Assembly (NCBI GenBank): GCA_023145615.1
Contig: JAGLDK010000019.1
Location: 1 to 34,382 of the forward strand
Direction of reading: 5' to 3'
DNA length: 34,382 nucleotides
Source of the DNA: Ichthyobacteriaceae bacterium
Lineage (GTDB): Bacteria; Bacteroidota; Bacteroidia; Flavobacteriales; JADGDT01
Shown here piece after piece: positions 208 to 30,626 of the stretch. The notes beneath the pieces were generated by a model. It ran no database searches. It worked only from the letters and a program-made list of their open reading frames with translations, and was not told the origin of the DNA. Position numbers and translations under genes: made by a program. The number at the start of each line of letters is the position of its first letter. Positions within the stretch are counted from its first letter, which is position 1.

Positions 208-1920
208 TTAGCTTTTTTTATCAACTGTAGTTTTCTTTAAAATCTTCTCTAATATTTTTTCAGTAATTAAATAAGTTGGCAAAACACCTTGATGTCCTAA
301 AGCACCCGATGCTAAAGTACTTCCAGTTTCTAGTGGATTATCCGATGCATAATACGCATACATTAATTTCACATCCTCCGATATACTTTTTCGGATTTTA
401 GATGCCGCCTGAATTGCCTTCTGATAATGTACTCCTTCCATTTCTAACCCTATAACTCCCCACGATGATTCATTAAAGAAACTTAAAATATCTCTGTTTT
501 GTAAAGATGTTCCTAAAACCGAAATCATTGGTCCAGAATAAACTCCCAATCCATAACCTTCGAAATCTTTTTTGGTAAAAGTATTATCGAAAGGATAATT
601 ATCGGCACTTCCTTCAAAAATATGAGCATCAGGAATCATAATATCACCTTTCGAACCCTGTAATATTCCAGCCTTTCCCATTATAGATATCGACTCGAAA
701 TTTAAATAATGCTTTTCTCCACTCGAATCCTCATAATATTTCAACAGCTCATCCATTGCCTCAAAAGCCTGTTCTCCAAAAGCATAATCCATAACCACAA
801 GTATAGGAGAATTATCTTTTTCAGTAGATTTTAAATCAAATGGTAAAACCATTTTTTTAATTAACGATGTATCGAAAATTTGAACATTAATATTAGTACC
901 CGATTCGTCGTTAATTTCAATCATTCCATACTGAAGTGCTTTATCTTTTATTTTTTTACGTAATTCAACTCCACTCTCGCTTCCAATATTAACAAAAAAC
1001 TCAACTCCCGGCATGTCTTTCGAGTATTTTGGCAATGCCGATCTACCATAAATCATATTCATAACACTGTGCATGTTTGCACTAATTACATGTATTGGTC
1101 GTTTTTCTAAACCATGCTTGTGTAAGGATTCTTTAATTGAATTAGCCCAAATTTCTCCATGAATATGATGCCCAATACTTTCTCTTAAAATTGCGTTAAA
1201 CGAAATTTCTCGTTTTTCGTTCTCTACAATTTCATTCATCGATAGTTTTCCAAGCCAATACATTATATGAATAAAACGCTCTGGATTTTTATCAGTTCCT
1301 AACTGTTTATATATATCGTGAACTTCCTCAAAGCTACGTCCTATAAGGCTACCAAGGTGCGTTAATGCAATCTCTCTATCAAGCCCATGTAAACGTGTAG
1401 AGTCTAAAACTATTTCCTCTATTTTTTGCCACTCTCTTATTGTTTTTCCTTCTTTATTTATTAATGCTCGAGAACTAATTTTTTTAGCTTCTTGAAACAA
1501 AAATGTAATATGAGTTAGAATATCATAAATTTCCGATCTACCACGGGTAATTTCAATATTCATTTGATCTTTATCAATTCTATAGCAATTTCTACGACGT
1601 TTTGGAGGTATAATTACTTCGAAATGAGATTTAGAAAACCCCTCATCTGAAGTAAAATTAATATATCTACACTCTTCAATTCCTTCAGGCAAACGATCAA
1701 TTACGTAAGTTAAACCATTTAATTCCACCTTGTTATTATCGGCAATACTTCCATAAATTTCGGGTTGCAACGATAGTAATTCATTTATTAATGCCTCTCC
1801 TGATAATCCTCCGGGTTTATAAAATCCACGATTAAATAAATGACGCATAGTAACGTATAATCGTTCTATTGCTGTTGATGATTCTTGAGCTCTGGTTCTT
1901 CCTATTTTCTTCATAAACAT
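208..1920 (-). CDS. Uncharacterised protein with a C-terminal nucleoside-phosphorylase-like region (resembles DUF6909)
   Basis: A 570-residue cytosolic protein with no signal peptide or membrane segment. I do not recognise an established function; it resembles a Bacteroidota family I recall as DUF6909. The C-terminal third (about 370-560) has features of the purine nucleoside phosphorylase/MTA-SAH nucleosidase fold: a strand-rich GKAGILQGSKGDIMIP stretch (415-430), the ribose-contact-like GLEMEG (491-496) and a late SDNP (526-529) where nucleosidases have a catalytic SD. The N-terminal 300 residues are helical with a basic patch near 107-111 (KRRRN). The start at 1920 is followed by a second ATG two codons in, so the true start may be 1914. 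It is last in a three-gene minus-strand run, 75 bp after a DUF1801 gene. The enzyme assignment is inference. Confidence 0.75.
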   Translation of the reverse strand: MFMKKIGRTRAQESSTAIERLYVTMRHLFNRGFYKPGGLSGEALINELLSLQPEIYGSIADNNKVELNGLTYVIDRLPEGIEECRYINFTSDEGFSKSHFEVIIPPKRRRNCYRIDKDQMNIEITRGRSEIYDILTHITFLFQEAKKISSRALINKEGKTIREWQKIEEIVLDSTRLHGLDREIALTHLGSLIGRSFEEVHDIYKQLGTDKNPERFIHIMYWLGKLSMNEIVENEKREISFNAILRESIGHHIHGEIWANSIKESLHKHGLEKRPIHVISANMHSVMNMIYGRSALPKYSKDMPGVEFFVNIGSESGVELRKKIKDKALQYGMIEINDESGTNINVQIFDTSLIKKMVLPFDLKSTEKDNSPILVVMDYAFGEQAFEAMDELLKYYEDSSGEKHYLNFESISIMGKAGILQGSKGDIMIPDAHIFEGSADNYPFDNTFTKKDFEGYGLGVYSGPMISVLGTSLQNRDILSFFNESSWGVIGLEMEGVHYQKAIQAASKIRKSISEDVKLMYAYYASDNPLETGSTLASGALGHQGVLPTYLITEKILEKILKKTTVDKKS

Positions 1921-2498: not shown

Positions 2499-3734
2499 TT
2501 AAAAACTATTTGATAAATCTTTAATAAACATATTTAAATCGTCGAGCTCAACATGATCCATAACCACAATTTTATACCATTTATTATCTCCGGTATGTGT
2601 TTGAGGTACAAGTCCGTATTTTGTAACCAATACTTTTGGTATGTATTCGGCATGCATTGTTACTAAATTCATGTGAGGATCTCTGAAATACTGTACACCA
2701 AGTTCGTCGAGCTTACTACATAACCACGATGTGCGGTAAAGTAGTTTGTTAATTTTTTCAAGCCATCCGTATGGACCATAAGTAAACAAAATCATCCAAA
2801 CCGATAGCGCATTTGCACCCGATCTACTACCACTTACAGTAATATCCATTCCGCTAACATACTCAGCCTCTTCGGTAAACACATATTTCATAAGTCCTTT
2901 ACGGGCTATAAAAACACCTGTTCCGTAAGGTGCCTGAAGCATTTTATGTGCATCAAGAGTAATAGAGCTTATATGTTCGTTTAAAAAATTAACCTTCGAT
3001 TCGGTATTACTTATTGGATAAATAAAACCTCCAAAAGCTGCATCAACATGCATTTTAAACTTTAAGTTGTGTTTGTTCATAACATCAACATAAATATTTG
3101 GATTATCAACCGACCCGAACATTGTTGTTGCCATGTTAGATACTACTATAAAGTATTTTTTACCGTTTGATTTAGAGTTTTCTACAACCTCATTTAACTT
3201 ATCAACAATAATATCACGAGTGTTAAATTCTACCGGAACCTCTATCCAATCGATATTTAATATGTTACCCGATTTTGGCATTGAGTAATGAGAATCTGCC
3301 GAAGAAATTATAGCAATCTCATGATGTTCAGCCTTATATATTCTTTTAAAATAGTTTCGGTAAATCCAAATTGCTTGCAAATTAGCCTCAGTTCCACCAC
3401 TTGCAATGTAGCCGTCAAAGTGTTCGTCTTCATCACCTTTCAACACATCTTTTGCTAACAACTCAATGGCTTCTCGTTCTAAAGCCTGAGTACCCGCAAA
3501 AAAAGCTTCCGACTCTCCAAGTGTATGACAACCTATGTGGTTTGGATTTTGAACAAATGTTCTTAACAATGGTGCATACTCTAAAAATGGAGCATTATCG
3601 TAAAACACTTCTCCATCTAAGTGCGAAGCCGGTATTCCTAGCGATTTTACCGTTTTAAAATTGGTATTTTCTTTTAAAGCACCTGTTATACGATGGTTTA
3701 TTTCGGTTGTTGTAAGTTTTTTCCAAATCTTCAT
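2499..3734 (-). CDS. PLP-dependent group II amino-acid decarboxylase
   Basis: A 411-residue fold-type I PLP enzyme of the group II decarboxylase family (glutamate, tyrosine, aspartate and histidine decarboxylases, MfnA). Seen: SGGTEAN (112-118) for phosphate binding, H149 in SHYS (ring stacking), D231 in HVDAAFGG (pyridine nitrogen), and the Schiff-base lysine K264 in DAHK, followed by the family's small/aromatic APYGTGVF. The substrate cannot be read from sequence; the archaeal-type length and the DAHK context favour MfnA-like enzymes acting on tyrosine, aspartate or glutamate. It is the first gene of a minus-strand run and borders the 2.5-kb repeat-rich tract. Two AspT-type exchangers lie beyond that tract, which could fit a decarboxylation/antiport pair. 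Confidence 0.88.
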   Translation of the reverse strand: MKIWKKLTTTEINHRITGALKENTNFKTVKSLGIPASHLDGEVFYDNAPFLEYAPLLRTFVQNPNHIGCHTLGESEAFFAGTQALEREAIELLAKDVLKGDEDEHFDGYIASGGTEANLQAIWIYRNYFKRIYKAEHHEIAIISSADSHYSMPKSGNILNIDWIEVPVEFNTRDIIVDKLNEVVENSKSNGKKYFIVVSNMATTMFGSVDNPNIYVDVMNKHNLKFKMHVDAAFGGFIYPISNTESKVNFLNEHISSITLDAHKMLQAPYGTGVFIARKGLMKYVFTEEAEYVSGMDITVSGSRSGANALSVWMILFTYGPYGWLEKINKLLYRTSWLCSKLDELGVQYFRDPHMNLVTMHAEYIPKVLVTKYGLVPQTHTGDNKWYKIVVMDHVELDDLNMFIKDLSNSF

Positions 3735-3918
3735 ATCTGCTGTCGATAAAATTAATTCTTAACAATTTACAACAAAACCAAGTTATAAGCATATTAACGC
3801 TACTAATAGTATTTAAAAACGACTATAAACAGTTTAATCAGATTAATAACTTATTCGTTCTTAAATTAAAATAGCAAACAACCTTGTAAATATTCCCTTA
3901 AGTAATGGTTAATTATTC

Positions 3919-3952
3919 AGCACCTATAAGTACTCGTTAATTTATAGGTGCT
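3919..3952. repeat. 11-bp inverted repeat (hairpin) before the decarboxylase gene
   Basis: AGCACCTATAA (3919-3929) and TTATAGGTGCT (3942-3952) pair perfectly across a 12-nt loop. No T-run follows on either strand, so a terminator is unlikely; an operator or cruciform is as likely. It sits 185 bp upstream of the decarboxylase start, at the left edge of the repeat-rich tract. Confidence 0.6.
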
Positions 3953-5258
3953 CTGACAAACCAAGTAAAAATATTAAAATTCGTTATTATCGAATCACGG
4001 TATTTATTAGATAACCAATTTATATACACAAATAATTGTGTAATGGCACCTATTAACTTGCTAACTCTTTAAATATACAGATATGTTAATAAATATATAA
4101 TCTACTGTTAATAAGATGAAAAATAATAGAGCTTATCAACCAAAAACTTTATCAACATTCATTTAATAACTATGTAAACAAAAAAATAATAACCTTGTAA
4201 AGTATCTATTTAAAAGGAATACTTAATAACAACTATTGTTAATAAGTTGTTAATTATACAAATCCTCAGCATAAAACATTATATTTTTAAGAACGTAAAG
4301 TATTTAACATACATATAATAACTTTTATCAACATATATTAATAACACACATTAGCTACTGTAATTCAGCAATAAATAATTAACATTATACATACAATATA
4401 TAATAAGTAGTAAAAGTTATTAATTAGTAATTAATAACTTTATAAACAGGTGTTAATAGTTAAACTATAAATCTGAAATAGCTTTATACAACATGTTAAA
4501 AAGTATGTTGATTACTATATATAATATTATGTAATTTCAGTTATAAACATACTGTTACAAACTTTATTAAACTATGTTTATAACTAATGTAAACACCTGA
4601 TTTACTTAAATAAGTTATAAAATATTGATGTTAATTATTTTTAGTAATTATACCTAAAACACATATTTATGAATTAGTTAATAAACTGTTATTAAGATTT
4701 GTTTATAGTATGTGGAAGTTTTTAAACAATAATTAATATAGAATGTTGATATTTGAAAAATCATATTTATACAGCTAACAATATGTAGTAATTTGGAGTT
4801 TAATTAACTGCTTAATGGTTTAACTTATTAGTAGAATACATGATTGATAAACAATACAGGTTTAACTGTTGGAGATATTTGCGTAGTTCTAGTAATTTCA
4901 ATCTATTTTAGAACTTACATATATGATAGTACTGTATATTATCAATACTAATAAAGATCTATTTAGCTGAAAACCATATTAAAGTAGGGATATCCAGTAA
5001 AACCCTGAATAAACACAAGAGGATGCTATTATAGTTTGAGGATTGTTTGTTATAAAATATCTATAAATAATATAATGTTATGTTTTATAATAACACATTG
5101 TTTATTAGTAACTACAATAGTTAAACATATTTATTAACTAATAAACACTTTATATTACTGAATTTTAGAGTGTTAAATTGATAATTATACATTAATAATT
5201 AATAACTTAACGGAGTGTTATAATAATAAGTAAACCAATATTTAAACAATGATGTTGG

Positions 5259-5280
5259 TTATTAACATTTATGTTGATAA
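5259..5280. promoter_or_regulatory. Dyad TTATTAACA-N4-TGTTGATAA
   Basis: Two copies of the array nonamer face each other with a 4-nt spacer, giving a 22-bp near-palindrome. It has the same geometry as the dyad at 5391. This looks like a site for a dimeric DNA-binding protein. Confidence 0.5.
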
Positions 5281-5388
5281 CTGATATTAAGAAATAAAAA
5301 TATGTTTGATAACTATAAACACACCGTTACTATTATAACATAACAGTTTAAAAAGGGCATTAAATAGTAGTTATTAATTGCCATTAAA

Positions 5389-5414
5389 TTTTATTAACAC
5401 CCATGTTAATAAAA
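5389..5414. promoter_or_regulatory. Perfect dyad TTATTAACA-N4-TGTTAATAA
   Basis: The arms at 5391-5399 and 5404-5412 are exact complements. The pairing extends two more bases on each side, to an 11-bp arm around CCCA. It repeats the spacing of the dyad at 5259. Confidence 0.55.
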
Positions 5415-5852
5415 AAGCTTAAGTACTGATTTTAAAGGGAAGTTAATTAACACTACTTACTAACAATGTTGTTAATTAAAAACAATACTTTGTAATAAGT
5501 TGTGCTTGACTTGTATTACTTAAGTACTGTATTGAAAAAATAGTTTAATAATACAAGAATAACTATTCATTACTTATTAAAACTATATCTACAAGTTTTT
5601 AACACTTACTTACATATTTACACGTTAATAGTTATTAATAATTTGTTGTTAGTTATTATATTAACAACTATTAATAAGTAAAATAAACCGCTATAAATAG
5701 GGGGTTTAAAGTCTAAAGTTATTATTTTAATGTGTTAATAATATTTAGTTAAGTTTAAATACAAGCAATCCTCAACAAAGTTTTACAGTTATTAACACAG
5801 TATATTATATTATTATATTTTTAAAGTTTAATTAAATAAAAGAATATATATA

Positions 5853-6048
5853 TATAAGATTAAATTTGAAGTGTAAAACTCAACGAAATTAATAATTAGC
5901 CGAAATGATAGTCTGAGAATAAGAAAATATAGCAATTAGTTTTACGGTATAATTAGCTGTTTTTAGAGCTTATTTTAATCTTATGCAGTAACATAATACC
6001 CCTAGCTATATTTTAGAGCCTTAAAACGGCTAATTTTATAAGATTAAA
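5853..6048. repeat. Nested inverted repeats with three copies of ATAAGATTAAA
   Basis: The outer arms are AATTAGCCG (5894-5902) and CGGCTAATT (6027-6035). The inner arms are AAAATATAGC (5924-5933) and GCTATATTTT (6005-6014). ATAAGATTAAA occurs directly at 5854 and 6038, and inverted at 5974-5984. This part of the tract lacks the TTATNAACA sites and could be a folded RNA, a cruciform or an old small mobile element. Confidence 0.4.
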
Positions 6049-6259
6049 CTTAAAAGTACAGCAGATATACGTTTTTAACCTATTAAGGTTTTTGTAGCTG
6101 TGTATTGTATCAGCATTAAAAACAACATTAAGTAATAACATTGTTAATAACCATTTAATATGTTATTAATGGTTTGCTAAACAACTAATATAACGGTTTA
6201 GTTATTAACTTAATTTTTTTGAATTGATTTATTTTGAAACTTAGATTCAACCTATAAAT

Positions 6260-7771
6260 ATGAAAAATATACTACTCCTTATTATACTACTACATATAGG
6301 TACAAATGTTTTTTGTCAGGACACAATAAAACAACCTATTACAAAGTTTTTTTATAAAGATGGAAGTTTGTCGAGCGAGGGAACTCTAATAGATGGGAAA
6401 CCCGATGGTTACTGGAAAACATATTATAAAAATGGAAAATTAAAATCGGAAGGTAACCGTGTTAACTATCAACTAAACAATAATTGGAAGTTCTACAACC
6501 AAGAAGGAGATATTACAAAGCAAATAATATATAAAAACGGAATACGTAACGGAAACGAAACTCATTATAATAAAGGGGTTTTAGCAGAGTTAATACCGTA
6601 TGTTAATAATATAAAAGAAGGTATATTATATAAGTATTTTAAAAGCGGAAACGTGCATTATCAAAAAAAATATGTAAATAATCAAGCATCGGGTAAGGCT
6701 TATGAGTTTGATGATAAGCACAACATTATTACAATAGAAACCTATAAACAAGGAGTATTAAATAAAATACAAAGAGTAAACCGTACTGATATAAAAGAAT
6801 TTAAACAAGGTTTGTGGGTTTGGTTTAATAAAAATAAGGTAATAATTAAACAAGGTACATTTACACATGGTGTAAAACATGGCTATTTTAAGTATTACGA
6901 TAGAAAAGGTAAATTGTTGAAAACCGAAAAGTATGTTAATGGAGAACTGCACGAAGACGCTGTAGAAACTGCAAAACTTGATATACGCAGAAGTTATTAT
7001 AGTAACAATAATATGTTGAAAAGCTATAATAGTTATAGAAAAGATAAAAAAGATGGAGTTCAGAAATTGTTTAATAATGAAGGAAAAGTTACATCAACCG
7101 AAATATATTATTTAGGAGTTTTAAGCTTTAAAGGTGGTGTAATTGATGATAAAGGAAAAAAACAAGGCGAATGGACTGAGTTTTATAGAAAAGGTGCCAA
7201 AAAATCGGAAGGAAGTTTCGAGGATAATAACAAATCAGGATTGTGGAAATATTATTACGAATCGGGTAATATTGAGCAAGAAGGAATTTACAAAAAAGGA
7301 AAAGCCACTAATAAATGGGTTTGGTATCATAATTCGGGTAAAGTACTTAGAGTAGGTTATTACATTTCGGGTAAAGAAAACGGAGAGTTTACAGAGTATG
7401 ATGCTAACGGTAAAATTGTATCGAAAGGAGAATATATAAATGGTAAACTATCGGGAGATTGGTTATATGTAAATGAGGATTATAAAATTTTTGGACGTTA
7501 TATTGATGGAAAAAAAGATGGTTTATGGACCGAAATAAATATGGTTAATAAAAATATTGTTTCGAAAGTAAATTATTATGAAGGCTATTTAAATAACACA
7601 TCAACTTACTATTATTTAAATGGAATAAAAAAAGCTGAAGGAAATTATACATCTGGCAAAAAACACAACAATTGGAATTATTATAATGAGCAAGGTGTAA
7701 AAACGGTTAAAGTATATTACAATAATGGAAAAGCAATTAAATACAATAACAAGCAGTTGAGCGAACTATAA
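6260..7771 (+). CDS. Secreted MORN-variant (YwqK-like) repeat protein
   Basis: A 503-residue protein with a clear signal peptide (MKNILLLIILLHIGTNVFC, cleavage near Q20). The rest is a run of about 17 repeats of roughly 23 residues with consensus G-x-W-x-x-Y-Y-x-x-G-K-x-x-x-E-G-x-Y, for example GYWKTYYKNGKLKSEG near 49. This is the MORN_2/YwqK-type repeat, which folds as a beta-meander. In databases such proteins often carry the name YwqK family antitoxin, but nothing here supports a toxin-antitoxin role. Periplasmic or surface exposure is expected. It is the first gene to the right of the repeat-rich tract and is followed by a hairpin at 7834-7861. Function unknown; a structural or binding role is the safest guess. 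Confidence 0.82.
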   Translation: MKNILLLIILLHIGTNVFCQDTIKQPITKFFYKDGSLSSEGTLIDGKPDGYWKTYYKNGKLKSEGNRVNYQLNNNWKFYNQEGDITKQIIYKNGIRNGNETHYNKGVLAELIPYVNNIKEGILYKYFKSGNVHYQKKYVNNQASGKAYEFDDKHNIITIETYKQGVLNKIQRVNRTDIKEFKQGLWVWFNKNKVIIKQGTFTHGVKHGYFKYYDRKGKLLKTEKYVNGELHEDAVETAKLDIRRSYYSNNNMLKSYNSYRKDKKDGVQKLFNNEGKVTSTEIYYLGVLSFKGGVIDDKGKKQGEWTEFYRKGAKKSEGSFEDNNKSGLWKYYYESGNIEQEGIYKKGKATNKWVWYHNSGKVLRVGYYISGKENGEFTEYDANGKIVSKGEYINGKLSGDWLYVNEDYKIFGRYIDGKKDGLWTEINMVNKNIVSKVNYYEGYLNNTSTYYYLNGIKKAEGNYTSGKKHNNWNYYNEQGVKTVKVYYNNGKAIKYNNKQLSEL

Positions 7772-8000: not shown

Positions 8001-9620
8001 ATGGACTTATTATTAAACCTTCTTGAAAAAGATTATTTTGTATTATTTCTGGTTATTGGGCTTGGAATTGCAATTGGAAAAATTAAAGTAAAAGGAATAT
8101 ATTTTGATATTTCGGCTGTAATATTTGTTGCTATATTTTTCGGATATTTATATAAACTTTTCGGAATTGAAGTTACCATACCAAGTATTGTACAACAAAT
8201 AGGTTTGGTATTATTTATATACACAATAGGAATGCAGGCAGGACCTACATTTTTCTCATCATTTAAATCTCAAGGATTAAAACTTATTGCATTAGCCGGA
8301 ATAACAGTTACTACGGGTGGTATTGTTGCCATGGTTATATCGTCAACAATGGGTGTTGAAATGGAAATGATGACTGGTTTATTAACCGGAGCACTTACAA
8401 GTACACCTGGTTTGGCTGCTGCTATTGAAGCTGCACAATCGCCGGTAGCATCAATAGGTTATGGAGTTGCTTATCCATTTGGAGTACTTGGAGTTATATT
8501 ATTTGTAAAGTTAAGTCCTAAGTTTTTTGGTATTGATATTAATAACGAAGAGAAAAAGTACAAAGATAAATCGGAGGCTAATATCTCCCCTATCAGTAAT
8601 AAAAACTTCATTATATCGAACGAAAATATTAACGGTAAAACTTTAGAAGAACTTAATATTAGATTTATGACTAAAGCTAATATTTCGAGAATAATGAAAC
8701 CTAATAAAGATTCGGTAGTTCCCGAACCTACTACTGTGCTTGAAATAGGAGATATGGTTAAGGCTGTAGGATCGGATAACGCACTTAAAAGAGTTGAAGT
8801 TTTACTAGGACATTCAACCGATATTAAAATTCCTAGAAGTGGAACTTACGAAATAAAAAGATATATAGTAAGTAATAAAAATGTTGTTAATAAAACAATA
8901 CAAGAACTTAACCTTTTAGATAATTACCTTGCAACTGCAACACGTATTAGAAGATCAGGAATTGACTTAATTGCTCGTCCATCAACAAGTTTAAGATACG
9001 GAGATAGAATATTGGTTTCGTGCTCTAAAGGTAACGTACCCGCAATAACAGAGCTGTTTGGCGATAGTTTAAAAACTGTTGAAGAAACAAGTTTTTTACC
9101 TGTTGCATTTGGTATTGTTATTGGTGTATTGGTTGGTAGTATTAGTTTTCCGTTAGGAAATTTTCATTTTAAATTGGGTTTAACTGGTGGTGTATTATTA
9201 TCGGCATTAGTATTAAGTTGGAAAGGAAAAACCGGACCAATAGTTTGGACTTTACCCGGAAATGCTAACCAAATATTACGTCAGTTTGGATTGTTACTTT
9301 TCTTAACCCCCGTTGGTTTAAAAGCAGGTACATCTCTACTACAAGCTATTGAAGAAAATGGAGCCATATTATTTGCATATGGTGCAGCAATTACTTTAAT
9401 ACCAATGATTACTACTGTAATATTCGGAAAATATATTTTCAAACTAAATTTCTTAACTATTTTAGGAACTTTAACCGGTGGTATGACATCAACACCAGGT
9501 TTAAGTGCTACCGATTCAATGACAGAATCGGACGCTCCACAGGTGGCATATGCTGCTGTTTATCCTTTTGCATTGGTTATAATTATTGTTATTGTTGAAG
9601 TAATGATGATATTTAAATAA
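8001..9620 (+). CDS. AspT/YidE/YbjL-type transporter with two internal TrkA_C domains (first of a pair)
   Basis: A 539-residue inner-membrane protein of the aspartate:alanine exchanger (AAE) family. Two homologous membrane halves (about 1-180 and 365-539) flank two cytosolic RCK_C/TrkA_C domains (about 201-272 and 284-358). Each half carries the family's signature: GLVLFIYTIGMQAGP (68-82) with TGALTSTPGLAAA (129-141) in the first, and GLLLFLTPVGLKAG (430-443) with TGGMTSTPGLSA (492-503) in the second. Length and order match AspT, YidE and YbjL. AspT exchanges aspartate for alanine, but the substrate here is unknown. A paralogue follows after 51 bp on the same strand, so the two are probably cotranscribed and might act together. 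Confidence 0.88.
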   Translation: MDLLLNLLEKDYFVLFLVIGLGIAIGKIKVKGIYFDISAVIFVAIFFGYLYKLFGIEVTIPSIVQQIGLVLFIYTIGMQAGPTFFSSFKSQGLKLIALAGITVTTGGIVAMVISSTMGVEMEMMTGLLTGALTSTPGLAAAIEAAQSPVASIGYGVAYPFGVLGVILFVKLSPKFFGIDINNEEKKYKDKSEANISPISNKNFIISNENINGKTLEELNIRFMTKANISRIMKPNKDSVVPEPTTVLEIGDMVKAVGSDNALKRVEVLLGHSTDIKIPRSGTYEIKRYIVSNKNVVNKTIQELNLLDNYLATATRIRRSGIDLIARPSTSLRYGDRILVSCSKGNVPAITELFGDSLKTVEETSFLPVAFGIVIGVLVGSISFPLGNFHFKLGLTGGVLLSALVLSWKGKTGPIVWTLPGNANQILRQFGLLLFLTPVGLKAGTSLLQAIEENGAILFAYGAAITLIPMITTVIFGKYIFKLNFLTILGTLTGGMTSTPGLSATDSMTESDAPQVAYAAVYPFALVIIIVIVEVMMIFK

Positions 9621-9671
9621 ACTATACTTAAAATTTAAGTTGTGTAAAAACAACTATTAAATTATATAATT

Positions 9672-11285
9672 ATGATTGAATTATTAACTGAAGAGTACTT
9701 TGTTTTATTCTTTATAATGGCAATTGGTATTGCTATTGGAAAGATTAAAATTAAAGGCATTGGATTAGATCAATCGGCTGTAATATTTGTTGCCATGATT
9801 ATTGGTATGATTTACGACAGATTTGGTATTCAATTTCAGTTTTCGGAAGTTATAAATAAATTTGGATTAGTACTATTTATTTACACAATAGGAATGCAAG
9901 CCGGACCATCGTTTTTTAAATCGTTTAAGGCATACGGTTATCAAACTTTTATATTAATTACGGGTATGTTAGTAATGGCAGCTATAGTATCTGTTAGCCT
10001 TGTATCGTTTTTCGACTTACATAAAGGTATGGCTGTAGGATTATTTACTGGTGCAATAACAAGCGCATCGGGTTTAGCTGCTGCTAGTGAGGTTTCAACT
10101 TCGCCTTATGTTAAAATTGGTTATGGTATTGCTTTTCCGGTTGGAATTATTACAATAATTGCATTTGTTAAAATGAGTGTTAAATTGTTTGGAGTAAATA
10201 TTAAAGACGAAGAAGAAAAATATAAATTAGATATTGAGGATCAAAATTACTCTATTGTAAACCGCCATTTTTCTGTTACTAACGAAAATGTTGATGGTAA
10301 AACCCTAAAAGAAATAGGATTACGAACTATTACACACTGTACATTAGCTAGAATAATGCGAGCTAATGGCGATTTAATAATTCCTTGTGATACTGCAATT
10401 TTATACACAGGAGATATTGTAAAGGTAGTTGGTAAATCAACCGACTTAGAAATGGTGTCGATGATAATTGGTCATGAAACAACTAAAAAAATACCTAGTT
10501 ACAAAAATTTCGAGTCTAAATGGTATGTAATTACCAATAGCCGTATTGTATCTCGATCTCTTAGAGAAATTGATTTAATGCAAAACTATACAGCTACAAT
10601 TACTCGTATCAGACGTGCAGGTATTGACATTACTCCTTATGCCGATTTTAAATTCAGATATGGAGATAAAATTATGATTTCATCGCCTAAAGAAAACGCA
10701 CGAGCTTTTTCTCAAATTTTCGGAAATAAATTAAGTAAGTTATCTGAAACCAGTTTTTTACCTGTTGCAATAGGTATTATTTTAGGAGTTTTACTTGGTA
10801 CAATTTCTTTTCCATTTTTAGGATTGAATATAAAATTAGGACTTACAGGTGGGGTACTTGTTATTTCAATATTAATGAGTTACAAAGGTAAAACTGGTCC
10901 AATTATTTGGAACCTTAATGCATCGGCAAATCAATTATTACGTCAGCTAGGGTTGCTATTATTCTTAATTCCGATAGGATTAGAACTTGGTAGCCAAATA
11001 ATAGATACGTTTTTGTTATACGGATTTAAACTATTTGTAGTTAGTTTCTTTATTACTTTAATTCCACTTGTTGTAACCACAATTATAGGAAAATATGTAC
11101 TTAAAATGAACTTTTTAGTTCTGTTAGGAGTAATAACCGGAGGAATGAATTCAACCCCCGGACTTACAGTAGCCGAAACCATGACTGAAACCGAAACACC
11201 ACAAATGGCTTATGCATCGGTGTATCCGTTTGGTTTGGTATTGATTATTGTAGTATCTCAGATTTTAGGTATGATAATGGGGTAG
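9672..11285 (+). CDS. AspT/YidE/YbjL-type transporter, second paralogue
   Basis: A 537-residue paralogue of the preceding gene with the same order: membrane half, two TrkA_C domains, membrane half. FGLVLFIYTIGMQAGPSFF (64-82) and the second-half GGMNSTPGL are kept. The first-half pore-like motif reads TGAITSASGLAAA (126-138) instead of TGALTSTPGLAAA, so the TP pair is replaced by AS. This suggests divergence in substrate or a non-equivalent role in a complex. The linker after the first half is charged (KDEEEKYKLDIED). It is separated by 51 bp from its neighbour, with no terminator seen between them. The substrate is unknown; a dicarboxylate or amino acid is the family-based expectation. Confidence 0.87.
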   Translation: MIELLTEEYFVLFFIMAIGIAIGKIKIKGIGLDQSAVIFVAMIIGMIYDRFGIQFQFSEVINKFGLVLFIYTIGMQAGPSFFKSFKAYGYQTFILITGMLVMAAIVSVSLVSFFDLHKGMAVGLFTGAITSASGLAAASEVSTSPYVKIGYGIAFPVGIITIIAFVKMSVKLFGVNIKDEEEKYKLDIEDQNYSIVNRHFSVTNENVDGKTLKEIGLRTITHCTLARIMRANGDLIIPCDTAILYTGDIVKVVGKSTDLEMVSMIIGHETTKKIPSYKNFESKWYVITNSRIVSRSLREIDLMQNYTATITRIRRAGIDITPYADFKFRYGDKIMISSPKENARAFSQIFGNKLSKLSETSFLPVAIGIILGVLLGTISFPFLGLNIKLGLTGGVLVISILMSYKGKTGPIIWNLNASANQLLRQLGLLLFLIPIGLELGSQIIDTFLLYGFKLFVVSFFITLIPLVVTTIIGKYVLKMNFLVLLGVITGGMNSTPGLTVAETMTETETPQMAYASVYPFGLVLIIVVSQILGMIMG

Positions 11286-11521: not shown

Positions 11522-13486
11522 TTAACCTTCAACTATTGGAATAGCACAAAAAATACTAGTACCCATTTTACTACTCGAAGAAATTTCCATTTCTCCATCC
11601 AATATTTTTACAAGAGTTTCTATTTCGAGCAAACCACTTTTATAATTTTTTTTATTGACATTAAACCCAATGCCATCATCTTCTATGTTGAAAGTAAACT
11701 CATTTTGGTGTCCTATTACTTCAATAAGTATTTCAGTTGCTTTAGAGTGCGTTATAGAGTTATTAACAGCTTCTTGAATTATTCTGTATATATGTAGTCG
11801 TTTCGATCTTTCTACCTTTTTAAAATCCAAAAAATCAATACTTATATCAATATCTGTTGTTGAATTAAGCTCGTCAATCATCAATTTTAAACTACTTTTT
11901 AATCCCGAAAATTTTAGGGTTTGATGAGATAGTTGATGAGATATAGTTCTTACATTATTATAAATTACAGATAAACTATCTGTAATACTTATATCGTTAA
12001 TAGGTGTACCTATTAGTAATTTATGTTCTACTTCATCAATACTATTTAAAACATTTACTTGAAGTTTTTGAGTAATTGAATTGTTAGTTTTATTTAATCC
12101 GCTTATGTATGAATTAAACATTAGGCGTTGATGATTATTTTTTTCGATTAATAACTTTTGTCTGAAAAACTCATTTTTTATTTCCTTATCAAATAAAGTT
12201 ACATTGAAAATTATTATTTCAATAAATGTACCAGTCATCATTAAATCATATTTTAATAAACTTCCAGGCAAATATCCTAATCCTATAAACATAATAACCA
12301 AAGCCCCTAGTATAGTTGGAGATAATGCAAGAAAAAATATATTTGACAGTGATTTTTTTTTATTTTTAACCAACAAAGCAACCAGTATAATTATCAACAA
12401 GTTAAAAACAGTTAAATAATAGTAAAATTTTATTACATATATTTTTTGTTCATCAATAGTATATATCCAAACTACTAGAGCTATAATGTATATGTACGAC
12501 ATTTTATCGAGTAGAAAATATAGCTTACTAAAAAAATCTTTAATTTTAAAAAAGTGTAAACTAAATCGTATAAACGAAAAAGTACTTATAAAATATAAAA
12601 CGTGTGTGTAGTTAAATATTTCAGGAATATTAGGATATACATATTCTGTTGTGTAGCCACGGTACGATAAAAACATTAACCATGTTGATGCAATATATAA
12701 AGTGTACATCAACACTTCTTTATTATTATAGGTAAAAGTAAGTATCATACCCATTAATATTGCAAGCATAACTACAATAAAAAATATTAGATGTATAATT
12801 TTTTTTACATCCATACTACTATTATAATAATTATTGGTTTGAATTTTTAAAGGAAAAGAAAGAGAATCGTTTATTTTTTTAATCTTTAGTATATAGGTTT
12901 CATTGCTGTTTGATGTTGCAGTTATGGGAAAAAATATTTGTCCTGATATAATTGTTCTTTCTTTTAATTTTAAATCAGTACCCGCAACAAATAGCTTATT
13001 AAAGCTACCATCGGGTTTGTAGTTATATAAAGTTACCTTGTGTATGTTTGGTGTTTCCGAACTTATTACATAATCAACATCCTCATTAACATTATTCTTA
13101 ATATTAAACACCACCCAGTAATAATCTTTATTAAAACCTCGGGTTGATTTATTATCAACTTTATATATGCTTCCTGAAGCTATTTTATTGGCAACCTCCA
13201 AAATTCCATAATCAACATCCGATTTATAAACATTGGTATAACTATTAAAATTTTCTTTATTAAAATCGGCATTTTCAATAACAAAACCGTTACTAGGTTG
13301 GGGTATTTTATTGGCGTAAATATTTGTACTAAAAAGTATAAGCACTAATGCTATATAAATTTTAAAAATACTATAAGCCTTATAATTTGATTTTATACTT
13401 GAATATTTTTTAAATATATCTAACAACAATACTTTAATATTAGTATAAATATATGTTACAAGTAGTAGTGTAATTTGCTTAATCAT
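11522..13486 (-). CDS. 7TM-DISM sensor protein with a degenerate histidine kinase core (no phospho-acceptor His)
   Basis: A 654-residue protein: N-terminal hydrophobic signal (about 43-58), periplasmic 7TMR-DISMED2-like domain (about 65-225, with STRGFNKDYYWVVF at 114-127), seven-helix membrane region (about 229-432) and a HisKA_3/HATPase-type core. The dimerisation helix 1, which should read ELHDN, reads KLQVN (474-478), so Gln476 replaces the histidine. Helix 2 is canonical (VRTISHQLSHQTL, 512-524). The ATPase has an intact N box (IQEAVNNS, 570-577) and G1 box (DDGIGF, 603-608), but the G2 region (SSKMGTSIF) is weak. It starts with ATG 8 bp inside the upstream kinase gene, so translation is probably coupled. 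It is likely a pseudokinase partner of that protein; a heterodimer is inference. Confidence 0.85.
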   Translation of the reverse strand: MIKQITLLLVTYIYTNIKVLLLDIFKKYSSIKSNYKAYSIFKIYIALVLILFSTNIYANKIPQPSNGFVIENADFNKENFNSYTNVYKSDVDYGILEVANKIASGSIYKVDNKSTRGFNKDYYWVVFNIKNNVNEDVDYVISSETPNIHKVTLYNYKPDGSFNKLFVAGTDLKLKERTIISGQIFFPITATSNSNETYILKIKKINDSLSFPLKIQTNNYYNSSMDVKKIIHLIFFIVVMLAILMGMILTFTYNNKEVLMYTLYIASTWLMFLSYRGYTTEYVYPNIPEIFNYTHVLYFISTFSFIRFSLHFFKIKDFFSKLYFLLDKMSYIYIIALVVWIYTIDEQKIYVIKFYYYLTVFNLLIIILVALLVKNKKKSLSNIFFLALSPTILGALVIMFIGLGYLPGSLLKYDLMMTGTFIEIIIFNVTLFDKEIKNEFFRQKLLIEKNNHQRLMFNSYISGLNKTNNSITQKLQVNVLNSIDEVEHKLLIGTPINDISITDSLSVIYNNVRTISHQLSHQTLKFSGLKSSLKLMIDELNSTTDIDISIDFLDFKKVERSKRLHIYRIIQEAVNNSITHSKATEILIEVIGHQNEFTFNIEDDGIGFNVNKKNYKSGLLEIETLVKILDGEMEISSSSKMGTSIFCAIPIVEG

Positions 13487-22840: not shown

Positions 22841-22962
22841 TTTGAAAAACAACAAAGTTGATGGTAACTATAACTAAATCATCAACATCAAATTATTTAA
22901 TTTGCACCTTAAATAGTTGTACATTAATAATTGTACTTTGATAATTGATAACTGACTATAAA

Positions 22963-24663
22963 ATGGACAAGCCTATTAGTAATGAAAATGAAGAAAAAAA
23001 ATCTTTAAATTTCATTGAGCAATTAGTTGAGAAAGAAATAAAAGAAGAAAAGCATAATGGTAAAATCTTAACTCGATTTCCGCCTGAGCCAAATGGATAT
23101 TTACACATAGGACATGCTAAGGCAATTTGTGTAAGTTTTGGTATTGCTAAAAAATATGGAGGAAAAACCAATCTTCGTTTTGATGATACCAACCCTGCTA
23201 AAGAAGAAGCTCGTTATGTTGATGCTATAAAAGAAGACATAAAATGGCTTGGATTTGAATGGGAAGGAGAGCCAAAGTTTACTTCTGATTATTTTGATCA
23301 GCTTTATACTTGGGCTTGCGATCTTATTAAAAAAGATAAGGCTTATATTGATTCTCAGTCGTCGGAAGAAATGGCAAAGCAAAAAGGAACGCCAACAACT
23401 CCAGGAACTCATAGCCCAAACAGAAGTAGAAGTGTAGAGGAAAACCTTGATTTATTCGAAAGAATGAAAAATGGTGAGTTTGAAGAAGGAACTCATGTTT
23501 TAAGAGCCAAAATTGATATGGCTCATTCAAATATGCATATGCGAGATCCTTTAATGTATCGTATTATTAATGCACCACACCACCGTACAGGAGATAAATG
23601 GCATATTTACCCAATGTACGACTGGGCACACGGAGAGTCGGATTATATTGAAGGTATTACAAATTCGTTATGTTCTTTAGAGTTTGAAATACACCGTCCG
23701 TTATACGAATGGTTTGTTGAAAATATAAAATCAGATATGTATCAACCGTTACAATCGGAGTTTGCACGTTTAAATCTAAACTATACAGTTATGAGTAAAC
23801 GTAAACTACTTCAGTTGGTTGAAGAAAACTTAGTTACCGGTTGGGACGATCCACGTATGCCTACAATTTCAGGATTACGAAGAAGAGGATATACACCTAA
23901 ATCAATAATAGATTTTGCTGATACTATTGGTGTAGCAAAACGAAATAATACAATTGATGTAGCGGTTTTAGAAAATTCGGTACGTAATGATTTAAATAAA
24001 ACAGCACCAAGAGTAATGGCTGTTTTAGATCCTATTAAAGTTGTTATTGATAACTTTACTGAAGGAGAAGTTGAGTGGCTTGATGCTGAAAACTCTCAGG
24101 AAGACGAAAGTTTAGGTTTCAGAAAAGTACCTTTTACAAAGGAAATATATATTGAAAGAGAAGATTTTAGAGAGCAAGCAAACAAAAAATTCTTCCGTTT
24201 AAAACTTGATAAAGAAGTACGATTAAAGAATGCGTACATTATTAAGGCAGTAAGCGTTGAAAAAGATGAAGAAGAAAATATTACTGTTATACATGCTACT
24301 TACGATCCTAAATCTAAATCGGGTAGTGGTACTGAAGAGTCGTTACGTAAGGTAAAAGGAACTTTGCATTGGGTGTCGGTATCAGAGTCTGTTGACGCTG
24401 AAATACGTCTTTACGATCGTTTATTTATGAATGAGAACCCTGATGGAGATAAGGAAAAAGACTTTAAAGAGTTTTTAAATCCTGATTCTTTAGAAGTAAT
24501 TACTGCTAAAGTTGAACCATCACTTAAAGAATGTAAATCTCAGGATAGATTTCAATTTCAGAGAATGGGATATTTTGTAGCTGATAACGATTCAACAGCC
24601 AATAAACTTGTATTTAACAAAACGGTTGGATTAAGAGATAGTTGGGCAAAAAAGGATAAGTAA
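22963..24663 (+). CDS. glnS: Glutaminyl-tRNA synthetase
   Basis: A 566-residue class I synthetase that charges tRNA-Gln directly. The HIGH motif lies in PPEPNGYLHIGHAKAI (40-55) and the KMSKS equivalent in VMSKR (276-280). The GlnRS-specific DDTNPAKEE (74-82) and the C-terminal anticodon-binding beta-barrels (about 340-560) are present. Length matches E. coli GlnRS (554). I chose the ATG at 22963; a longer frame opens at TTG 22945 but adds only six residues. GlnRS in Bacteroidota is considered an old transfer from eukaryotes. It is preceded by a terminator and followed by another (24718-24750), so it is probably monocistronic. Confidence 0.97.
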   Translation: MDKPISNENEEKKSLNFIEQLVEKEIKEEKHNGKILTRFPPEPNGYLHIGHAKAICVSFGIAKKYGGKTNLRFDDTNPAKEEARYVDAIKEDIKWLGFEWEGEPKFTSDYFDQLYTWACDLIKKDKAYIDSQSSEEMAKQKGTPTTPGTHSPNRSRSVEENLDLFERMKNGEFEEGTHVLRAKIDMAHSNMHMRDPLMYRIINAPHHRTGDKWHIYPMYDWAHGESDYIEGITNSLCSLEFEIHRPLYEWFVENIKSDMYQPLQSEFARLNLNYTVMSKRKLLQLVEENLVTGWDDPRMPTISGLRRRGYTPKSIIDFADTIGVAKRNNTIDVAVLENSVRNDLNKTAPRVMAVLDPIKVVIDNFTEGEVEWLDAENSQEDESLGFRKVPFTKEIYIEREDFREQANKKFFRLKLDKEVRLKNAYIIKAVSVEKDEEENITVIHATYDPKSKSGSGTEESLRKVKGTLHWVSVSESVDAEIRLYDRLFMNENPDGDKEKDFKEFLNPDSLEVITAKVEPSLKECKSQDRFQFQRMGYFVADNDSTANKLVFNKTVGLRDSWAKKDK

Positions 24664-30386: not shown

Positions 30387-30480
30387 ATGGCATAACCTTC
30401 CGCTATCGCTACAGGTCGGGCTATCGGCTAAATCTTTTTGCGAAAAAGCAAAAAGGATACCGCCTTTATCCCTTATGCTA
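30387..30480 (-). repeat. GC-richer dispersed repeat of the Bacteroidota intergenic type
   Basis: A roughly 94-bp block with far more G and C than its surroundings. Read on the minus strand it has AGGGATAAAGGCGGTATCC, then a hairpin CTTTTTGC/GCAAAAAG (30434-30455), then AGCCGATAGCCCGACCTGT. I recall near-identical wording scattered between genes in many Bacteroidota genomes. GGCATAA (30389-30395) and TTATGC (30473-30478) bound it. Copy number cannot be checked here. Confidence 0.55.
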
Positions 30481-30626
30481 AAAAAAACACAGCATAAAAG
30501 TTATTGCAGTTTAAATTCAACCTTAAATTAATAAAAGCGAAAGTAGAACTTATTGTGTTTTGTAGGCAACAAAATCATTTTTATTCATGAAGTTGATATT
30601 AATTTTATTTACCTCTGTGTTATTTA

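Follow-up and report, generated by a model that had tools for sequence, protein, structure and literature searches.

A gene-free tract with fifteen TTATNAACA sites as the probable chromosomal replication origin of an Ichthyobacteriaceae bacterium

Introduction

The locus described here raises a simple question: what is the role of a long, gene-free tract in which one 9-mer, TTATNAACA, occurs 15 times? The tract lies in a stretch of 34,382 nucleotides, analysed as a whole and referred to below as the window, which is contig C20 of a draft genome of 2.1 Mb (108 contigs, 68% complete). The Ichthyobacteriaceae, to which the source belongs, are a family within the Flavobacteriales. The 9-mer differs from the E. 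coli DnaA box by a single letter, with A instead of C at position 6, and it had been suggested that the tract is a replication origin using a shifted DnaA box.

Continuous bacterial origins span approximately 250-950 bp and contain 5-19 boxes, while a spacer gene extends split origins to about 2 kb; none of the high-affinity boxes that have been tabulated has A at position 6 (PMC4285127). Origins that lie apart from dnaA have been described in Prevotella intermedia and as a general feature of the Bacteroidota (PMC4755523), and in Algorimicrobium, a Flavobacteriaceae genome, the origin was placed by mnmG (PMC12843772).

Results

Architecture of the tract and abundance of the 9-mer

The ORF-free tract (3759-6244, 2.49 kb) contains 15 exact TTATNAACA sites, spanning 4084 to 6150, of which seven are on the plus strand and eight are on the minus strand, where they read TGTTNATAA, the commonest tract 9-mer of that form. 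The recount recovers every site of the original prediction, clusters included, and places the expected number at 1-3 where about one had been estimated; the flanking genes diverge, as had also been proposed, with the PLP-dependent decarboxylase to the left and the MORN-repeat gene to the right. The features are collected in Table 1.

Table 1. Features of the candidate origin and of its surroundings (window coordinates)
Feature	Position	Strand	Remarks
DUF6909 protein	208..1920	-	homologue ~20 kb from G047 GC-skew minimum
PLP-dependent decarboxylase	2499..3734	-	left flank
Candidate oriC	3735..6259		gene-free, AT-rich (78.5% A+T); flanking genes divergent
Dispersed repeat A	3898..4060		many genome copies; box-free
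Box cluster I, 8 boxes	4084..4583		
Putative DnaA box TTATTAACA	4084..4092	-	
Putative DnaA box TTATTAACA	4106..4114	-	
Putative DnaA box TTATCAACA	4149..4157	+	
Putative DnaA box TTATTAACA	4237..4245	-	
Putative DnaA box TTATCAACA	4325..4333	+	
Putative DnaA box TTATAAACA	4440..4448	+	
Putative DnaA box TTATAAACA	4541..4549	+	
Putative DnaA box TTATAAACA	4575..4583	-	
Dispersed repeat B	5039..5232		~30 matches in the genome part examined; box-free
Box cluster II, 4 boxes	5259..5412		two convergent pairs, 4-nt gap each, 132 bp apart
Putative DnaA box TTATTAACA	5259..5267	+	
Putative DnaA box TTATCAACA	5272..5280	-	
Putative DnaA box TTATTAACA	5391..5399	+	
Putative DnaA box TTATTAACA	5404..5412	-	
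Weaker box TTTTTAACA	5596..5604	+	aligned sequence: TTATCAACA (G002), TTTTCAACA (G001)
Box cluster III, 3 boxes	5733..6150		boxes 5733 and 5789 within the part conserved in two congeners
Putative DnaA box TTATTAACA	5733..5741	-	
Putative DnaA box TTATTAACA	5789..5797	+	adjoins AT-richest segment
Candidate DNA unwinding element	5801..5860		3 G/C in 60 bp, lowest in the tract; putative function
Putative DnaA box TTATTAACA	6142..6150	-	
MORN-repeat protein	6260..7771	+	right flank; conserved with right part of tract in both congeners
glnS	22945..24663	+	origin-proximal in G047 (~8 kb) and G004 (~5 kb)

Over the full window there are 27 TTATNAACA sites, compared with 8.1 +/- 2.9 in dinucleotide shuffles, none of 100 shuffles reaching 27. 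When Markov models (orders 1 to 4) are trained on the tract itself (3735-6259), the means are 1.1-3.0 sites, and not one simulation (1000 per order) yields 15 or more; even against the order-4 model, the excess is approximately five-fold. Other contigs of the same genome (615 kb) carry the motif at 0.70 per 2.5 kb, or 1.28 per 2.5 kb of ORF-free DNA. Taken together, the shuffles, the models and the other contigs indicate that the excess is both real and local. The draft as a whole contains 603 copies, compared with 540 of a reversed control pattern, and no ORF-free stretch in the window or these 615 kb is longer than the tract (the runner-up is 1.43 kb). The textbook box TTATNCACA does not occur in the tract; the window has three copies, with 2.8 expected, which is the chance level.

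The candidate unwinding element starts 4 bp past the box at 5789-5797 and is mostly kept in two congeners. The spacing of the convergent pairs in cluster II was found in none of 60 relatives at its exact 4-nt gap, and is therefore not a conserved origin signature. The dispersed repeats were ruled out as the source of the sites, as neither of them contains a box; repeat A is modular (approximately 3898-3944, 3947-3992 and 4017-4055), and its modules also occur singly.

No Rfam RNA was detected within the tract; elsewhere in the window, a Flavo-1 RNA (RF01705) lies at 30410-30483 on the minus strand, indicative of a flavobacterial source. Beside the MORN gene, two adjoining Asp-Al_Ex/TrkA_C (AspT/YbjL-like) permease genes occupy 8001-11285, a pairing seen in the same genus only. 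AspT-like permease loci in named genomes (Winogradskyella, Marinilabilia and others) showed neither MORN/AspT synteny nor box clusters outside the genus.

GC skew and the origins of complete relatives

Cumulative GC skew over the window reaches its minimum at 4394, within cluster I. For the most part, however, skew here tracks the strand of the genes, and third-position values do not clearly separate leading from lagging strands. As the draft state of the genome gives no global skew curve, the skew check was run in complete relatives. Two complete genomes from other families, G004 and G047, were each sampled as 20 stretches of 20 kb, and the minima were then resolved contiguously. The G004 minimum falls at 1,457,211, close to five TTATNAACA sites at 1,457,368-1,457,864; the pgk-rpiB gap contains four of them, and the remaining one is located within the beginning of the rpiB gene. 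For G047, the minimum was mapped to 2,547,347, with four sites at 2,547,004-2,547,323, between rpiB and rnr. Each skew minimum is thus located roughly 20-160 bp from a cluster of TTATNAACA sites, rather than at one of TTATNCACA sites, the outcome that a shifted-box origin had led one to look for. Each gap holds four sites, where 0.24 (G004) and 0.44 (G047) are expected; within the stretches analysed around the minimum, the two clusters are the sole places with at least three sites per kb and are among the AT-richest DNA. The DNA upstream of rpiB has 2-4 TTATNAACA sites in nine further Flavobacteriales genomes, and 0-1 in several others.

The dnaA gene is remote from these minima, being located near 280 kb in G004 and at 1.818 Mb in G047 (about 1.18 Mb and 0.73 Mb away, respectively), and no dense box cluster is found in the stretches around dnaA in G001, G002, G004, G047 and G058. 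In the 68% complete source draft, dnaA was not detected. The tract is therefore not an origin of the dnaA-linked kind, dnaA being far from the origin in both complete relatives and giving no hit in its own draft.

Synteny and conservation in congeners

The link between the window and these minima was examined by gene content. The genes of eight stretches from family f1, to which the same-genus congeners of the source (G001 and G002) belong, were compared with 400 kb around both minima and with 800 kb sampled from the same genomes, strict matches being those with a minimum of 45% identity and 70% length coverage. There are 26 strict matches near the minima and three in the sampled DNA. Eight of the 26 derive from the window, while none comes from contig C24 (discussed below) or from the contigs that carry dnaA in G001 and G002. 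The genes glnS, gltX, ybeY, mnmG and that of the DUF6909 protein surround the minima of the relatives, and are carried either by the window contig or by its counterpart in a congener. On contig C9 of G002, the gap upstream of the MORN gene (13.1-13.6 kb) is followed by glnS at about +10 kb, gltX at +15 kb, and ybeY and mnmG at +20 kb; from the G047 minimum, the same order is seen at similar distances (glnS +8, gltX +14, ybeY +19 and mnmG +19.5 kb).

The MORN-upstream gap of the congeners is short (0.5-0.6 kb) and contains three TTATNAACA sites each in G001 and G002, where 0.25 and 0.33 are expected (P approximately 0.001 and 0.004, respectively); when TTTTNAACA is also counted, each gap has five sites, with 0.7-0.8 expected. 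The right part of the tract (5587-5863) aligns with this gap in both congeners; neither of them has an equivalent of the left part, which includes clusters I and II. The approximately 400 bp at 5860-6259 also lack a congener counterpart; in both congeners the AT-rich element directly precedes the MORN gene.

The rpiB locus was considered as the origin of family f1 and ruled out: no TTATNAACA site lies upstream of rpiB in the three f1 genomes. The origin of this family therefore appears to sit beside the MORN gene instead.

These comparisons bear on whether the array could have arisen without function, through AT-rich drift and repeat insertion. The tract is indeed very AT-rich and contains two dispersed repeats, but the repeats are box-free, the five-fold excess persists against an order-4 model, and clusters recur in the congeners and at other origins; such an explanation is scarcely credible.

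A second dense cluster on contig C24

The original prediction, made from the window, mentioned only isolated copies of the motif, inside genes, outside the tract. A scan of the window and 615 kb of the genome (contigs up to C59) revealed a second dense cluster on contig C24, with seven sites in approximately 580 bp. An intergenic region of about 220 bp (12,915-13,132), upstream of a gene for an M3-family peptidase, contains five TTATNAACA and two TTATGCACA sites in a palindromic arrangement. Clusters of DnaA boxes situated away from dnaA and off the origin are characteristic of the datA and DARS loci, which titrate or reactivate DnaA. It is conceivable that the compact C24 cluster is the true origin, and that the tract is an accessory DnaA-binding locus of the datA-like titration type, or a reactivation locus. 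The C24 sites are more densely packed than those of the tract; however, they form strong hairpins (DNA fold z = -7.6), more like a terminator or a palindromic element, and no site precedes the orthologue of the peptidase gene in G002, where the neighbouring upstream gene is, admittedly, a different one. The regions around the skew minima contain no match to any C24 gene, in contrast with the strict matches of the window. The tract shares with datA and DARS a box cluster away from dnaA, but its equivalents sit at GC-skew minima, and synteny, rather than direct mapping, puts the tract itself in the origin neighbourhood. We therefore consider an origin on C24 improbable, and rate its cluster as a putative secondary DnaA-binding or terminator-like locus.

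The DnaA recognition helix and box position 6

The TnCACA portion of the E. coli box is read by a DnaA helix comprising residues 434-451, and the T435M protein is defective in binding (PMC5742627). Alignment of the G001 protein to E. coli domain IV (1j1v) shows that Thr435 is replaced by Ala, in the motif RDHATV, and G002 has the same motif; the recognition helix is DHTTV in E. coli and DHATV in both congeners. The comparison of this helix, proposed along with the shifted box, thus reveals a difference at residue 435. DHATV is found in most of the Flavobacteriales DnaA proteins examined, while DHSTV is present in G038 and in families f5 and f9.

The origin upstream of rpiB allows the boxes to be compared at one location. 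Five Flavobacteriaceae with DHATV have TTATNAACA here, whereas G038, which has DHSTV and is equally AT-rich, has five copies of TTATNCACA and none of TTATNAACA. Two boxes can be aligned column by column: CTTATCCACA of G038 corresponds to GTTTTCAACA or GTTATTAACA in the others, and its GTTATCCACA to GTTATTAACA. The boxes are thus TTATNCACA in G038 and TTATNAACA in its relatives, which raises the possibility of a joint change at residue 435 and box position 6, the G038 lineage having kept or regained Ser; this co-change is suggested by one switch only. The correspondence is not strict: the higher-GC genomes with Ala (G041, G058 and G015) mix A and C boxes, and family f5, with Ser, has a recurrent C box and some A boxes near rpiB, not necessarily at the f5 origin. 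The replacement of Thr by Ala at residue 435 in most of the Flavobacteriales examined is a plausible candidate for the cause of the A at position 6. The wider proposal, that in this order the loss of the Thr/Ser hydroxyl at 435 relaxed or shifted position 6 from C to A, leaving AT-rich members with TTATNAACA and the Ser-bearing G038 with TTATNCACA, is offered tentatively, its chances being slightly below even.

The same observations bear on whether another protein could bind the array, such as a partition centromere protein, a nucleoid organiser or a regulator of the MORN gene, the tract being merely near the origin. The constant 4-nt gap of the convergent pairs (5259/5272 and 5391/5404) could suit a dimer, and the conserved part of the tract is directly upstream of the MORN gene. 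Against this, the same 9-mer clusters at skew minima amid other flanking genes (pgk/rpiB and rpiB/rnr), and a lineage with a different DnaA residue 435 has TTATNCACA in its place. No evidence specific to an array for a partition or nucleoid protein was found, and we regard binding by such other proteins as very unlikely, even more so than an origin on C24.

Discussion

The tract combines a cluster of box-like 9-mers, an adjoining AT-rich element and an origin-proximal gene neighbourhood. It departs from the classical pattern in that its boxes lack C at position 6 and that the congener DnaA lacks Thr435. The array itself, its independence from the dispersed repeats, the clusters at the skew minima of relatives, the synteny and the partial conservation in congeners together argue that the tract is very probably the chromosomal oriC, with TTATNAACA as its putative DnaA box. 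The earlier suggestion of an origin with a shifted DnaA box is thereby strengthened, through the skew minima, the synteny of origin genes and the difference at residue 435.

In the mechanism that we propose, DnaA, encoded elsewhere in the genome, would bind the 15 TTATNAACA boxes, which probably represent the high-affinity site of the clade. The box-bound DnaA would oligomerise, and an AT-rich element, most likely that at 5801-5860 beside the box at 5789, would be opened. The helicase would then be loaded, and two forks would depart in opposite directions, as expected if initiation is bidirectional.

Like the continuous origins of E. coli and Streptomyces, the tract has asymmetric 9-mer boxes within one intergenic region and an adjoining AT-rich element, and its 15 boxes fall within the range of 5-19 (PMC4285127). 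It is unlike them in length, its boxes being spread over 2.07 kb with no spacer gene, against approximately 250-950 bp for continuous origins (PMC4285127), and in having TTATNAACA in place of TTATNCACA. As in Prevotella intermedia and Algorimicrobium, the origin is not beside dnaA, and it is mnmG-linked in relatives of the window genome; the Prevotella origin was, however, sought with the E. coli box allowing one mismatch (PMC4755523). Literature searches returned no published consensus in which TTATNAACA is a Bacteroidota DnaA box. A precedent for the box is found in the Mollicutes, also with AT-rich genomes, where A is allowed at position 6: the box of Mycoplasma hominis is TTATTAACA (PMC2751442), and the consensus for the group is TT(T/A)TC(C/A)ACA (PMC3322544). 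The Mollicutes differ in belonging to another phylum and in having few boxes, located around dnaA, and no link to residue 435 was drawn there. A box with A at position 6 in Mollicutes and Bacteroidota origins distant from dnaA are thus already known; what is new is the recurrence of the shifted box across the Flavobacteriales, a candidate correlate in DnaA, and an unusually long single-gap origin of 2.07 kb.

Origin finders take TTATCCACA and dnaA as their default cues (PMC10225481), which fail to indicate the origin in the genomes analysed here. To locate oriC in Flavobacteriales, drafts included, a practical guide is to combine TTATNAACA with the glnS-mnmG and rpiB/rnr neighbourhoods. If the link to residue 435 is true, these bacteria would represent a natural experiment in the joint change of specificity of an essential initiator and all its sites.
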